Assembly: GCF_900091515.1 (NCBI RefSeq)
Contig: NZ_LT607410.1
Coordinates: 558,001-622,000 of the forward strand
DNA from: Micromonospora purpureochromogenes
GTDB taxonomy: Bacteria > Actinomycetota > Actinomycetes > Mycobacteriales > Micromonosporaceae
Length of the DNA stretch: 64,000 nucleotides
Reading direction: 5' to 3'
The notes beneath the pieces are model-generated. The model ran no database searches. It saw nothing but the letters and a program-made list of their open reading frames with translations, and was not told where the DNA came from. Shown one piece after another: positions 47,025-58,401 of the stretch. Each line of letters opens with the position of its first letter. Position 1 is the first letter of the stretch. A program made the position numbers and the translations under genes.

Positions 47025-48002
47025 TCAGTGCCAGGTGGCTGCGGCGCGCCGCAACCGGTCGTTGATCGCCCGCCCCACCCCGGTGTCGGGCACCGCCTCG
47101 GCCAGGATCTCGGTCACCCCGGCCGCGTCCAGCCGGTGCAGGGCGTCGAAGAGCCGGGCGGCGGCCTCGGTCACGTCCCCGGCGGGTGAGAGCACCTCGA
47201 CCGCCGCGTACCCGTCGGCCGGCCGCTCCCGGAAGGCCAGGAAACCGCGCCGGCCGCCGTCGGCCGGCGCCGGCTGCGCCCCCGCCACCACCCGCAACGG
47301 GGTACGCGGCGCGTAGTGTGCGGCCAGCGTCCCCGGCGCCACCGGCTGCCCGGAACTGCCCGGCCGGACGCTCACCGGCCCGACCGCCTCGATCAGCTCC
47401 TCCAGGGCGAGCGCGCCGAGGCGCAGCACCACCGGCTGCGCGCCGCGCGCGTCGACGATGGTCGACTCGATCCCGCACCGGGTCGGCCCGCCGTCGAGCA
47501 CCACGTCCACCGCCGCGCCGAGCCCCTTGACCACGTGCTCGGCCCGGGTCGGGCTGAGCTGCCCGAACCGGTTCGCGCTCGGCGCCGCCACCGGTACCCC
47601 GGCGGCCCGGATCAGGGCCCGCGCGGAGGGCTCGTCCGGCACCCGGACGGCCATGGTGTCCAGCCCCGAGGTGACGATCGGCGGAATCTCGGCGGGCCGG
47701 TCCACGATCAGCGTGAGCGGCCCCGGCCAGAACCGCTCGGCCAGCGCGGCCACCGCCGGGGGCACCGGTCCGACGAGCTTCTCCAGGTCGGCGGCGTCGG
47801 CCAGGTGGGTGATCAGCGGGTCGAAGCTGGGCCGGGCCTTGGCCTCGAAGATCCGGGCGGCGGCCCGGGCGTCCAGGGCGTTCGCGCCGAGGCCGTAGAC
47901 GGTCTCGGTCGGGAAGGCCACCAGCCCGCCGTCGCGCAGGACGGCGGCGGCCTCGGCGATGCCGCTGTCGGCGGGCAGGACACGTGGGGATCCGGTGCTC
48001 AC
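47025..48002 (-). CDS. L-threonylcarbamoyladenylate synthase (Sua5-type)
   Basis: 325 residues, GTG start. TAGCGT (48009-48014, minus) ends 6 nt upstream, so it is leaderless. YrdC domain: GGLVAFPTETVYGLGANALD, KARPSFDPLITHL, PAPSANRFGQLSPT; then a Sua5 C-terminal domain from about 215. It makes threonylcarbamoyl-AMP for t6A37 of ANN-decoding tRNAs. Confidence is high on fold. Confidence 0.92.
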   Translation of the reverse strand: MSTGSPRVLPADSGIAEAAAVLRDGGLVAFPTETVYGLGANALDARAAARIFEAKARPSFDPLITHLADAADLEKLVGPVPPAVAALAERFWPGPLTLIVDRPAEIPPIVTSGLDTMAVRVPDEPSARALIRAAGVPVAAPSANRFGQLSPTRAEHVVKGLGAAVDVVLDGGPTRCGIESTIVDARGAQPVVLRLGALALEELIEAVGPVSVRPGSSGQPVAPGTLAAHYAPRTPLRVVAGAQPAPADGGRRGFLAFRERPADGYAAVEVLSPAGDVTEAAARLFDALHRLDAAGVTEILAEAVPDTGVGRAINDRLRRAAATWH

Positions 48003-48584: not shown

Positions 48585-49043
48585 TCAGCAGCAGCTTGCG
48601 GCGGCTCCGCTGGTGGCGGGCTCCTTCTCGGCGGCCGGGGTGCAGCAGGCGCTCTCGGTCGCCTTCTCCAACTGCGGGGAGTCGGCCTTGACGGTGTAGA
48701 CCTCCCACGGCTCGTTGCCCGGTCCGCGTACCCAGACCTTGTCCTGGAGGGCGTAGCAGCACTCCGTGCTCTTCTCCTCCAGCGTGATCAGGCCGGCGTC
48801 GGTGAGGCGCGTGGTCGCGGCGTTGACCTCGTCCGTGCTGAACACCTCCACCCCGAGGTGGTCCATGACGGTGGGCTGGTCGGGCTCGCCTTCGAGCAGG
48901 ACGAGCTTCAGCGGCGGGTTCTCGACGGCGAAGTTGGCGTAGCCGGGGCGACGCTTCGCCGGCTCGACGCCGAACAGCTTGGAGTAGAAGGCGACGGAGC
49001 CCTCGAGGTCGGAAACGCGCAGGGCGAGCTGGACGCGGGACAT
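48585..49043 (-). CDS. arsI: ArsI/CadI family dioxygenase-like metalloenzyme
   Basis: 152 residues, ATG. Vicinal-oxygen-chelate fold (LALRVSDLEGSVAFYSKLFGVEP). Fe ligands at the expected spacing are Gln5, His62 and Glu114, and the arsenical-binding pair Cys95-Cys96 (TECCYALQDKVWV) is present. ArsI cleaves the C-As bond of methylarsenite; CadI is a cadmium-induced homologue. A Cys-rich tail (ACC near 133 and SCC at the end) adds possible metal sites. Divergent from an ArsR gene. Confidence 0.88.
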   Translation of the reverse strand: MSRVQLALRVSDLEGSVAFYSKLFGVEPAKRRPGYANFAVENPPLKLVLLEGEPDQPTVMDHLGVEVFSTDEVNAATTRLTDAGLITLEEKSTECCYALQDKVWVRGPGNEPWEVYTVKADSPQLEKATESACCTPAAEKEPATSGAAASCC

Positions 49044-49089
49044 GGTTCTCCTCCTGTGACGGTTCAGCGGATGTGCTGTCTAGATGATT

Positions 49090-49127
49090 TTCGAAGCAGT
49101 GACCTCACTGTGGCACCTTGCTTTGAA
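49090..49127. promoter_or_regulatory. Candidate ArsR operator
   Basis: TTCGAAGCA (49090-49098) and TGCTTTGAA (49119-49127) form an inverted repeat with one mismatch in the 102-bp divergent arsI/arsR region. Confidence 0.5.
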
Positions 49128-49145
49128 GTCTGTCAACCTAGAGGC

Positions 49146-49529
49146 ATGCCGAAACAAACGCTGCCGGTGGTGGACCTGCAAGCGGTGGCCTGCTGCCCTC
49201 CGATCGCCGCGAGTCCGCTGGACACCGCGCAGGCGAAAGTCGTCGCGCCGATGTTCAAGGCCCTGGGTGACCCGGTCCGGCTGCGGCTGATGTCGATGAT
49301 CGCCTCGGTGCCGGAGATCTGCGTCTGCGACCTGACCCCCGCGTTCGACCTGTCCGGGCCGACCATCTCCCACCATCTGAAGGTGCTGCGCGAGGCCGGT
49401 CTGGTCGACTCGGAGCGGCGCGGCACCTGGGTCTGGTACCGGGTCAAGGCCGAGGCGTTCCGCCAGCTCGGCCTGCTCCTGGACATCCCGGCCCGGCCCG
49501 CCGTCGAGGCCGGCCGTGAGCGACGGTGA
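49146..49529 (+). CDS. arsR: ArsR family regulator
   Basis: 127 residues. ATG at 49146. Winged helix with FKALGDPVRLRLMSMIASVPEICVCDLTPAF: Cys59 and Cys61 are the As(III)-binding pair of the ELCVCDL class, and there is another pair at 16-17. Recognition helix SGPTISHHLKVLREAGLV. Represses the divergent arsI gene by inference. Confidence 0.92.
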   Translation: MPKQTLPVVDLQAVACCPPIAASPLDTAQAKVVAPMFKALGDPVRLRLMSMIASVPEICVCDLTPAFDLSGPTISHHLKVLREAGLVDSERRGTWVWYRVKAEAFRQLGLLLDIPARPAVEAGRERR

Positions 49530-53700: not shown

Positions 53701-53820
53701 GTGCGAGAAGGCGTCTTCATGCATAAGACGCTGCGGATCACGTTGGAGACGTACGTGCACTGGTGGCCGAAGCGGGAGCGTTGGCGCGGTCCTGCAAGCG
53801 GTCGCGACTCGGGCGCATCG
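53701..53820 (+). pseudogene. Tyrosine-recombinase C-terminal relic
   Basis: In frame from 53719: MHKTLRITLETYVHWWPKRERWRG. The segment TLETYVHWWPK with the catalytic-type Tyr and the basic tail is typical of the end of actinobacterial phage or ICE integrases. No catalytic box upstream. The frame does not continue; the next bases read in another frame as an AVLQAVATRAHRA-type tail. Assignment from pattern memory. Confidence 0.55.
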
Positions 53821-54406
53821 AGCCCGGCCAGGCTCTGGCCACCGACTACGACAGCTTCGCCGAGGCGTACGCCACCGGGACCGAGTCCAACCTCATCAAC
53901 GGCTACTACACCCGGCCGGCAATGCTGGACTTGGCCCGGCAGCGGCTCGGCGATGGCACGGCCCTGCATCAGGGCGGTCTGGGCGGCGATCCGCTACCGT
54001 TCCCCGACGCCTCGTTCGACGAGGCCATCGCCTGCCTCGTCCTTCACTACCTAGAGGACTGGACGGCACGCTCGCCGAGTTGCGACGCGTCCTCGTACCC
54101 GGCGGCCGACTCATCGTGGCCGTCAACCATCCCTTCGTCTACCACCTGATCAGGCCCGAAGGCGACTACTTCGCCACGGAACAGTGGACCGACGAGTACA
54201 CCTTCAACGGCCAGCCCGCCGAGCTGACGTACTGGCACCGGCCACTGCACGCAATAGCCAACGAGTTCACCGCAGCCGGCTTCCGGATCGCCGTCGTGAG
54301 CGAACCACCTCCCGCGCCCGGTGCCCGCGAGGCGTTCCCCGACCTCGTGACCTCCCCCTCGGGGTACATCCTGTGCTTCCTGTTCTTCGTCCTCGAGGCT
54401 GCGTAG
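53763..54406 (+). pseudogene. SAM-dependent methyltransferase remnant
   Basis: Two frames together make a degraded class I methyltransferase. Frame A (53763-54149) has DYDSFAEAYATGTESNLINGYYTRPAMLDLARQRLGDGTA and then FDEAIACLVLHYLEDW; frame B (to 54406) continues LDGTLAELRRVLVPGGRLIVAVNHPF to LCFLFFVLEAA. A frameshift lies near 54055, and the SAM-binding motif I (D-x-G-x-G) is missing between PAML and ARQRL, indicating a deletion of roughly 30 residues. Dead gene. Confidence 0.75.
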
Positions 54407-55759: not shown

Positions 55760-55919
55760 CCCTCGACGGGTGACCGGTGTCGGCGGTGGGCAGCTGGCCC
55801 TCCAGGATCCCGACCGCCGGGCCGACGATCCCGAGGGCCGCGAGGAGCGCAGATCCGGACGTGTAGGCGTCCCCTTTGGCTGGAGCGAGCTTGTCCTATC
55901 CCTGTGCGCTAATTCCGTC

Positions 55920-56432
55920 ATGGATGTCGTCGTCACAGGCGCACTCGTTGAAAACGGCGCGGTCCTGCTAGTACACCGCAGGCCGACCAAACGGGCATAC
56001 CCAGATGTCTGGGATCTGCCCGGGGGGCAGGTCGAGGCGGGTGAGTCGGAGCTACAAGCCCTCGCGCGTGAGATGCACGAGGAGCTCGGTGTTCACATTG
56101 CGGCGGAGTCCGCTTCACGGTTGGGCGTCTTGCATGCCGGCAGTGGTGAGGACGCCGTTCACGTGGGCGTCTGGCAAATTGGAGACTGGGTTGGCTCTCC
56201 GACCAACCGTGCACCTGACGAGCATGACGACATCGCATGGGTCGGGATCAGCGAGCTGGGCGGTCTTCCCCTCGTGCATGGCGTCTTGGCGGCAATGGTT
56301 CGTTCTCTGCCTGAGTTTGAGTGCGCCCGCAGGCACTCAGATGTCACCGACTGTAACCAGGATGACCGAGGAACCAAGGCCGGCTGTCGTGCATGTGCTG
56401 GGACGGATTCGTCAAGCAGGTGGTGGGACTAG
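55920..56432 (+). CDS. NUDIX hydrolase
   Basis: 170 residues; ATG at 55920. The Nudix box GxxxxxExxxxxxxREUxEExGU is perfect: Gly36, Glu42, Arg50, Glu51, Glu54, Glu55, Gly57. Preceded by LLVHRRPTKRAYPDVWDLPGG, MutT-like. Activity on an (oxidised) NTP or other nucleotide diphosphate is likely. Its C-terminal 35 residues after SLPEFE are low-complexity and probably run into the adjacent integrase relic; native length would be near 135. Confidence 0.85.
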   Translation: MDVVVTGALVENGAVLLVHRRPTKRAYPDVWDLPGGQVEAGESELQALAREMHEELGVHIAAESASRLGVLHAGSGEDAVHVGVWQIGDWVGSPTNRAPDEHDDIAWVGISELGGLPLVHGVLAAMVRSLPEFECARRHSDVTDCNQDDRGTKAGCRACAGTDSSSRWWD

Positions 56433-56448: not shown

Positions 56449-56544
56449 GAAGGGCGCCGACACCTATGGGCACGTCCTGCCGGCGCGGCTCGTCAGGCTG
56501 CCTCGGCCATCGATCGCGTGCTGGGCGAGGAGGGGACGGCGTGA
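56449..56544 (+). pseudogene. Tyrosine-recombinase tail relic next to the att copy
   Basis: GADTYGHVLPA in one frame joins, after a single-base shift near 56490, ARQAASAIDRVLGEEGTA and a TGA at 56544 in the next frame. TYGHVLP with the catalytic Tyr and the RQAA-AIDRVL tail are typical integrase ends. It stops 56 bp before the tRNA-Ala-derived repeat. Confidence 0.6.
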
Positions 56545-56599
56545 CCGCTTGGCTGTACGAATGGCTGTACTCGGGACCGAGGTCAACCGGGGAAAGTGC

Positions 56600-56647
56600 T
56601 GGTGGAGCCCAGGGGACTCGAACCCCTAACCCCTGCCTTGCAAAGGC
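56600..56647. repeat. att-like 48-bp direct repeat of the tRNA-Ala 3' end
   Basis: Identical over 48 bp to 58326-58373, the 3' half of the tRNA-Ala gene including encoded CCA and the anticodon stem-loop. After it the sequence diverges at once. This is the classic tRNA-gene integration scar (attL or attR). Confidence 0.85.
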
Positions 56648-56958
56648 GGCTCCACACAGTTGATGCTTGCTGATCAATGCAGACGACTGGTGTTGTCGTC
56701 CGGGACTTTGCTGTCCCGTACCAACGGTTGACGGCTGTTGTCCCGCGTCTCGCTGACTTCCTGCTGACTGACGACCGTCAGCCCCGCCGGTCCTCACCTC
56801 GGGCCGGCGAGCGGTGCTGGGCTCAGCTCGACGGGCACCCTCGTCCAACCCCGCTCGCCTCGCCCGGTACGATCGCGAGCTTGTTCTCACTGCAGGGAGC
56901 CCATGAGATCCGCGTGCGGCCGCCCCGGCAGTTCCCATGCTGAGAGTAGGTTTCGTCA
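56648..56958. other. Gene-free accessory spacer
   Basis: No supported gene. A short hairpin GGGACTTTGCTGTCCC and a GACTGACGACCGTCAGC-type repeat near 56765 are seen. Probably internal DNA of the decayed element. Confidence 0.5.
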
Positions 56959-57339
56959 ATGGCATGCCGTATCAGTGAGCTCGTGCTCAAGTGCCGCGAC
57001 CCCGAGGTGCTGGCGCGGTTCTGGTGCGAGGTCCTGGACTTCATAGAGCTCGATCGCGAAGAGGGGGTCTACATCGAGATAGGTCCGCGCGAAGGGTTCG
57101 GCGGCCCGCAGCCGACGATCTTCCTCATCCGCAACGACGAGCCGAAGAACGGGCATTCCCGGCTGCACATCGACGTCAACCCCACCGACCGCGATCAGGA
57201 CGCCGAGCTCGAACGCCTCCTGGCCGCCGGGGCCAAACTCGTCGACATCGGTCAGCCCGCGGAGGCGTCCTGGCACGTCCTCGCCGATCCAGAAGGCAAC
57301 GAGTTCTGCCTGCTCAAGCGCCGCCTCGACCCACTCTGA
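56959..57339 (+). CDS. VOC family protein
   Basis: 126 residues, ATG. Glyoxalase-like: CRISELVLKCRDPEVLARFWCEVLDF and LADPEGNEFCLLKRR. It is the only intact gene inside the tRNA-Ala repeat-bounded segment. Substrate unknown. Probably carried in by the element. Confidence 0.82.
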   Translation: MACRISELVLKCRDPEVLARFWCEVLDFIELDREEGVYIEIGPREGFGGPQPTIFLIRNDEPKNGHSRLHIDVNPTDRDQDAELERLLAAGAKLVDIGQPAEASWHVLADPEGNEFCLLKRRLDPL

Positions 57340-57985
57340 CGGCCCTCGCCCAAACGATCGACGCAGCCGCCACCCCGCAGCCGCCGACAAGATCTGGCGA
57401 CCCCCATCAATAGCTGGGGGGCCGGGTGGACGCTCGACCCGCCCCGTGTCGCATGCGTGTTGGTGAGGCATTGACCCAGCCAGCGGAACCTCGCCATCCC
57501 GTCGCCGTCGACCCGCCCTTGTGGGAGCGGGCCGCCGTCGGGGCCGCCACGTCAAGACGGCCTTGACGCACGGACGGACGCTGGCGGTCCCGGCGGCGGT
57601 CTGCTCGGCTCGCCCCGGGTCTTCGGCGGTGGGATGGCGCTACCGCAACCACCCACGGACCGCGACCCGCCGACGGAGCCCCGGCCATCCTGGAGCCGGA
57701 GCGCCCCCGCCGGAGGCGCACTAGCCGCAACCCCGCGACCGCCGGCAGTTCGCCGACGCGGCTGGCGTGCCCTCCCCTACGCGGCGCGGGCACGTGGCTG
57801 CGCGGCCCGGCCGGCTGCCGGCCCACCCCTCACTCGTCAACGGTCTGTCGTTCTGCGGCGGCCCCCGGGCTTCCCGCTGTCCGCGCCAGCCGCCGGGCGT
57901 CAGGCGTGACGGCCGCAGAGCGACAGCGGCAGCGGCCGGCGCGCGCCCAGGCGGCGGCGCGTGCGGCCCGTTGCGGGCCGCCTTG
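57340..57985. other. Long gene-free accessory stretch
   Basis: 646 bp without a convincing ORF: frames open here are high-GC shadows of low-complexity Pro/Arg composition and lack a ribosome site or known motif. Consistent with decayed mobile DNA. Confidence 0.55.
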
Positions 57986-58310
57986 ATGCTGCCTAGCAAC
58001 TTCCGGCGTCAGGTCTGGCGCCCGTCGCTTGTCCGGGCAGGGCTTCTCGGCCAAGTGACCGAGTCCGGGCCCTTCAAGTTCCGCGCGAGCTGGCCCGACC
58101 GCGACGGCGTGGAATGGTCCGCGGAGTTCACCACCGAGCGGGAAGCGGTCGACTGCGTGGCGAGCAAGGCGGCCGGCGGACTCGCATACTCCGGCGGATT
58201 TCCACGAGTCGGTGCGCAGGGTCTTCGACAGTTCTACTGACGATTCGCTGACGACCGTAGAAGATCCTCAATCCGACGGCGATCCAGTCGAGGGAGAAGA
58301 CAGCCCGTGA
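57986..58310 (+). pseudogene. Tyrosine recombinase relic with catalytic core deleted
   Basis: Frame 1 gives MLPSNFRRQVWRPSLVRAGL and KFRASWPDRDGVEWSAEFTTEREAVDCVASKAAGGL, typical of an actinobacterial integrase just before its HDLRH motif; the frame then fails. A second frame gives DFHESVRRVFDSSTDDSLTT and ends at TGA 58308-58310, the usual integrase C-terminus. The R-H-x-x-R and Tyr core between is lost. It ends 15 bp before the tRNA-Ala repeat, the normal place for int beside att. Confidence 0.6.
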
Positions 58311-58325
58311 CCAGGCTGAATGGTG

Positions 58326-58401
58326 TGGTGGAGCCCAGGGGACTCGAACCCCTAACCCCTGCCTTGCAAAGGCAGTGCTCTGCCAGTTGAGCTAGGGCCC
58401 C
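58326..58401 (-). tRNA. tRNA-Ala (TGC)
   Basis: 73-nt cloverleaf (58401 to 58329) plus encoded CCA (58328-58326). Acceptor stem GGGGCCC/GGGCTCC with one G-U pair, anticodon TGC in CTTTGCAAG, T-loop GGTTCGAGTCC. Its 3' 48 nt are the attachment target repeated at 56600. Confidence 0.97.

Follow-up and report, generated by a model that had tools for sequence, protein, structure and literature searches.

A 48-bp tRNA-Ala repeat in Micromonospora purpureochromogenes as the probable seam of a decayed element tandem around an intact VOC gene

The window analysed here, a stretch of 64,000 nucleotides of Micromonospora purpureochromogenes (contig NZ_LT607410.1, positions 558,001 to 622,000; genome G000, 6.67 Mb in a single contig), contains an intact tRNA-Ala(TGC) gene on the reverse strand (58326–58401; ARAGORN, and Rfam RF00005 at 58329–58401), followed by tRNA-Ile and adjoined by gyrA. 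The 3′ half of tRNA-Ala, the attachment site, is repeated on the same strand: 58326–58373 and 56600–56647 are identical (0/48 mismatches; start-to-start distance 1726), as a preliminary description had reported, and an exact match of 48 bases within 64 kb is not a chance event. That description had also proposed integration at the tRNA 3′ end, and the arrangement is that of a tRNA-sited element remnant, with the intact tRNA on one side, the partial 3′ copy on the other and an integrase relic beside the attachment site. From left to right the window carries the border of an element B, the 48-bp copy, a probable border of an element A, a VOC gene, a dispersed repeat of ~0.5 kb, a relic of integrase A and tRNA-Ala. 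The VOC gene (56959–57339, forward strand; PF18029, E 4.7e-23) and the integrase relic had both been noted between the copies, and are borne out; the remainder had been taken as non-coding DNA, much of which is the 0.5-kb repeat (57492–57986), found throughout the genus.

Relics of three tyrosine-integrase families (A, B and C) are present in the window, and each family adjoins tRNA-Ala in relatives. The relic of integrase A (57986–58304, forward strand) derives from the C-terminus of a tyrosine integrase of 427 aa and is split over two frames (76% and 49% identity, E 3.3e-35), which correspond to residues 281–348 (57986–58189) and 386–426 (58182–58304); it stops 22 bp from tRNA-Ala. Residues 349–385 are missing, and with them HDLRH (349), HEQ (375) and the tyrosine of TLNRY (381). 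Of integrase B, ~28 C-terminal codons remain (56456–56541, forward strand; 84–96% DNA identity to B elements), a relic that is weak as protein (E 4.9e-6), its tail alone matching well; together with the element B border (56546–56599, forward strand) it accounts for a DNA match over 56456–56599 that touches the partial tRNA copy just outside the copies, on the left. Integrase C is represented by 23 aa further left (53722–53790, forward strand; 87% identity, E 1.8e-10). All three integrases are dead in the window. In a reversed-sequence control the best match of the relic search reached only E 0.05.

Among 60 orthologous loci, integrases of family A (427 aa in L122) terminate at most 50 bp from tRNA-Ala in 8 (window included), those of family B (383 aa in L104) at most 70 bp away in 21 and those of family C (279-aa piece in L125) at most 101 bp away in 4 (L125, L100, L099 and L133); L099 belongs to the genome that best matches the window in its gyrA-side flank. 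Matches to A of at least 67% identity, a line drawn after inspection of the data, occur in 9 of 160 genus genomes and lie at tRNA-Ala in 9/9; partial matches of 50–66% identity sit elsewhere in other genomes where positions were compared. Integrase C is followed in the window by a broken methyltransferase (53722–54406 for both), and in L121 a bit of the methyltransferase from this region is fused directly to the tail of integrase B beside the tRNA. The gene next to the B relic (55920–56432, forward strand) encodes a NUDIX protein (PF00293, E 4e-19) and is a possible cargo gene of B: 55858–56384 is 87% identical in L132, there upstream of a B-integrase fragment. According to PMC3218068, the NUDIX protein Pif of the actinomycete integrative conjugative element (AICE) pSAM2 prevents redundant transfer, and a relation of the window gene to Pif may be worth considering.

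The comparison with other strains proposed in the preliminary description was run on related genomes, one per species, as 60 orthologous loci (L098–L157, window included) of ~20 kb each, three of them shorter. The sample is non-random, many loci having been chosen for a match to the B border or because they come from complete genomes. Only one tRNA-Ala copy is present in 39/60 loci, and in the other 21 a second copy (up to 12/48 mismatches accepted) lies 1.1–17.3 kb away; L103 represents a near-empty site, and L104, L105 and L107 contain apparently full elements. This variable presence refutes the idea of a conserved RNA with a function of its own, or of half a tRNA duplicated by chance, as the source of the partial copy, which is extremely improbable; the copy is exact over 48 bases, as such an origin would allow, but an Rfam scan of the window gave no match at gathering score apart from the two true tRNAs.

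A gene at 47025–48002 (Sua5/YrdC-like by eye) is conserved on the far side in many loci, while from ~48.3 kb to tRNA-Ala the loci have little in common, so that the hot spot in the window spans ~10 kb (48.3–58.3 kb) and the 1.7-kb segment first described as the remnant is a fraction of the variable region. tRNA-Ala(TGC) next to gyrA is a genus-wide integration hot spot. At its far edge a glyoxalase-family gene lies beside an ArsR-type regulator (48585–49529), and a stretch 78% similar to this region sits 62 bp from tRNA-Ala in L103. In one relative, G096, the tRNA-Ala/gyrA-side region occurs twice, on two contigs (C4:2555-4197 and C3:234404-236042), from duplication or as an assembly effect.

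The DNA on either side of the partial copy identifies it as the junction of two elements. The border immediately to its left joins integrase B to the true tRNA in L104, L105, L107, L153 and others. The same seam (B border, core with 0 mismatches, A) recurs in 4/59 other loci, L122, L123, L124 and L127. The reading frame of integrase A is open in three of them (L122, L123 and L127), whereas L124 has it in two frames; in these four, as in the window, two element borders share one att core. A and B are in reverse order in L137, and the several seams together with this reversal indicate that stacking took place more than once and in either order. The probable far border of element A (56648–56840, forward strand) is placed by reference to L127, the one locus in which 56456–56768 is matched (86%) at the far tRNA copy. 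For B and C, a search that allowed up to 12/48 mismatches detected no left-hand att copy in the 17 kb read on that side of the tRNA.

The locus had originally been explained by a single element at tRNA-Ala that shrank to 1.7 kb, in which case the left border would belong to the same element or to old chromosome. The repeat and the inner integrase relic would, taken alone, be compatible with such a history, but what adjoins the copy on its left is the border by which integrase B is linked to the true tRNA in many loci, and A and B are found separately in others. With the partial copy lying at the seam of two integrase families and a third relic further left, a single element is largely refuted and appears very unlikely. 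The preliminary description was right that much element DNA has been lost, A, B and C all surviving as relics.

The B element of L104 measures 11,078 bp from the tRNA to the second att copy (3 mismatches) and contains, besides its integrase, RepSA (E 3.8e-105), an FtsK-type translocase (E 1.4e-8) and two further genes that by eye look GntR-like and NUDIX; with its att-tra-rep-int-att order it is apparently an intact AICE, judged by gene content. For element A of L122 three proteins were scanned, giving the integrase, HTH_17 and AAA_25, and no translocase was recognised by eye in the gene lists of L122, L123 and L126, of which some genes were profile-scanned; a larger island in L127 has an FtsK/TraB-like protein that scores below curated cut-offs. 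Between the att sites of the window rep and FtsK/Tra genes are absent and gene finding gives only VOC, so the segment itself counts as an AICE remnant at most.

The 48-bp repeat is therefore, very probably, the A/B seam of a decayed tandem of elements at tRNA-Ala in which the VOC gene stayed intact and the elements were cut down. Tyrosine integrases of at least three families (A, B and C) would act on an element site that bears the tRNA 3′ half and recombine it with the corresponding part of the tRNA-Ala gene, so that the tRNA is restored and the element ends, on its other side, in a partial copy. This genome acquired elements of each of the three families, A coming to sit between the tRNA and the B border, with 56600–56647 as the seam. 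In the course of decay, presumably by deletion, integrase A would have been stripped of its catalytic part, B reduced to an integrase tail and one border, and C to 23 codons; VOC, which probably arrived with A, most likely stayed intact because the cell benefits from it. The geometry permits A before B or B before A, and any order of arrival, like any exact crossover point, would be an inference.

The 0.5-kb repeat (57492–57986, forward strand), which abuts the relic of integrase A, is GC-rich, highly conserved and present in multiple copies in the genus (L002, L003, L017–L037). In G000 it is represented by three long copies, along with two pieces of lesser length and four scraps, and three other complete genomes have 18, 6 and 8 matches (8, 3 and 2 of them >275 bp). 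Strong inverted repeats mark the family, and the left part of the sequence is able to form a long one; in the window the repeat has no Rfam match at gathering score that would make it a known RNA. It breaks off after GCCGCCTTG or one base later in 5/29 readable right ends (window, L191, L193, L030 and L035), and most others share an extension. The left arm and VOC, with or without the repeat (56631–57986), recur as a block in L187, L189, L190, L191 and L193. This block was considered as a clean transposon and rejected: its left edge in L187, L189 and L190 retains 17–48 nt of the tRNA-Ala 3′ half, and its right edge adjoins different DNA.

The VOC gene (Glyoxalase_6; also PF00903, E 2.6e-5) is intact, encodes 126 aa and lies within a module of ~56843–57450. 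Matches (E up to 1e-60) were found in 45 of 160 genus genomes, one in each, and VOC lies between the conserved 47025–48002 gene and tRNA-Ala in 6/60 loci, with a further case in G091 (L191); the gene is thus not specific to the tRNA-Ala locus. Thirty-two of the 45 genomes were examined (all except G113, G069 and the 11 lowest-ranked), and the reading frame is intact in 32/32 copies. For the 31 copies of equal length (465 pairs), mean dN divided by mean dS gives 0.285, a value that indicates purifying selection. Between the window and G078, G122, G133 and G168 the VOC module is 97–98% identical, compared with 85–86% for the gyrA-side flank, so the module has moved horizontally; outer flanks of VOC are unrelated, save among the loci at tRNA-Ala and apart from short matches (42–110 bp). 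The best named match is in M. tarensis (94%). A single-sequence search of solved structures returned no VOC relative, a profile search gave a weak match to the uncharacterised protein 4lqb (E 1.9e-4), and no NCBIfam model matches the protein. Among 28 aligned proteins H70 is invariant and E7 and E115 are nearly so; these three residues could, we assume, form a metal site. VOC was also considered as part of a complete element, and in the 32 loci no rep/tra match was found within 6 kb (15 query proteins from L104, L105, L122 and L127), the search returning only integrase pieces, a B integrase of almost full length in L128 and, in L115, a PP2C-like match. In 5/32 loci VOC has an integrase motif no more than 5.5 kb away, several loci being just 2–3.5 kb long.

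A tRNA or tRNA piece lies within 1.2 kb of VOC in 16/32 loci (14 when two 17-nt pieces are set aside) and within 5.5 kb in 18/32, and in 18/18 of the latter the nearest piece is antisense to VOC; these 18 are non-independent, since eight lie at tRNA-Ala or a relic of it and in a ninth (G078) the nearest piece is 19 nt of tRNA-Ala. Among VOC homologues of named genomes (78/80 from other genera) a tRNA piece was found within 1.2 kb in 5/80, whole tRNAs in 4/80. Far flanks of the Micromonospora VOC loci gave 2/20 with a tRNA piece, far flanks of the named loci seven (n = 72 by rule, approximate) and loci of the 0.5-kb repeat 2/21 with a tRNA. The half-tRNA library comprised 20 isoacceptors from the compared loci, so that counts may run low, a bias that the controls share. 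In 10/32 loci VOC has copies of a single tRNA on both sides, and five tRNA genes are involved: tRNA-Ala (G000, G022, G091, G002 and G138, the left copy of the last resting on 25 nt with two mismatches), Gly-TCC (G122 and G094), Gly-CCC (G078), Val-CAC (G024) and Arg-CCT (G030, which rests on a 16-bp repeat). VOC stands alone between tRNA-derived direct repeats ~0.6 kb apart in L118, L128 and L205.

These patterns can be read in two ways: VOC is cargo kept through the collapse of elements or, less likely, a mobile one-gene cassette. In the second reading the VOC unit would be a minimal, non-autonomous cassette with a tRNA-derived att site on each side, mobilised in trans by integrases resident in the genome, which is unlikely but in keeping with the three ~0.6-kb units, the bracketing at five tRNA genes, the lack of rep/tra matches, the few integrase motifs and the nearly full-length B integrase that adjoins the L128 unit. 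The same pattern would, however, result if larger elements collapsed around a gene under selection; VOC has integrase fragments beside it in the window and in loci such as L188 and L191, there is no tRNA piece within 5.5 kb in 14/32 loci (some of them short), the sizes and right ends of the units differ, and neither a circle nor an empty-site pair was seen. That VOC in the 1.7-kb segment came by arrival of a cassette, and not by collapse of a larger element, would be compatible with stacked relics and has a small probability. Nor is it probable, in broader terms, that minimal VOC islands of ~0.6 kb, lacking an integrase, use those of several unrelated resident elements in trans, as a chromosomal cassette system built from tRNA halves; if they do, VOC would have spread in this way over many tRNA genes of the genus. 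An integron gene cassette is a single gene between recombination sites, in fixed orientation and with no recombinase of its own. The VOC units of L118, L128 and L205 are alike in these respects, but their sites are tRNA halves. The cut-off for an integron integrase is 265 bits; integrase A reaches 35.9 and integrase B 65.4. The most economical reading remains one in which tRNA-sited elements, belonging to several integrase families, carry VOC and the gene persists through their collapse.

Accretion and decay of this kind have already been published, and the window fits the known type. In AICEs (pSAM2, pMR2 and relatives) a tyrosine integrase adjoins the 3′ end of a tRNA and direct repeats form the att sites, as here, and the B element of L104 likewise has RepSA and an FtsK-type translocase, whereas of the elements in the window nothing but integrase tails and borders is left; a Micromonospora rosaria record of 11.2 kb, the size of pMR2, encodes an integrase with 26% identity to integrase A. 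Published cases include an AICE with a 43-nt att segment at tRNA-Pro (PMC3364876) and tandem AICEs in Frankia and S. avermitilis (PMC3218068); the latter source considers chromosomal fragments with at most two core components to be, in all likelihood, remnants of AICEs, prophages, transposons or islands of another kind. AICEs with different integrases accrete at one Streptomyces tRNA-Arg, and AICE decay is also described (PMC9513070). Stacked elements with different integrases, direct repeats and remnants are common to that site and the window; the window differs in genus and tRNA, in that all three elements are dead, and in that the surviving gene is a VOC gene recurring at other tRNA genes. 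Among literature titles and abstract openings, none concerned the tRNA-Ala locus, the VOC gene or the 0.5-kb repeat. Less expected is the VOC pattern, an intact gene under purifying selection, in mostly unrelated loci and in 10/32 of them bracketed by tRNA copies.

A bare repeat thus becomes a readable history, in which three integrase families used one tRNA and their elements stacked and decayed. Near-empty, full, tandem and collapsed forms of the locus across the genus offer material on the accretion and death of AICEs, and VOC provides a testable case of a cargo gene that may outlast its vehicles, recurring in one orientation at several tRNA genes.
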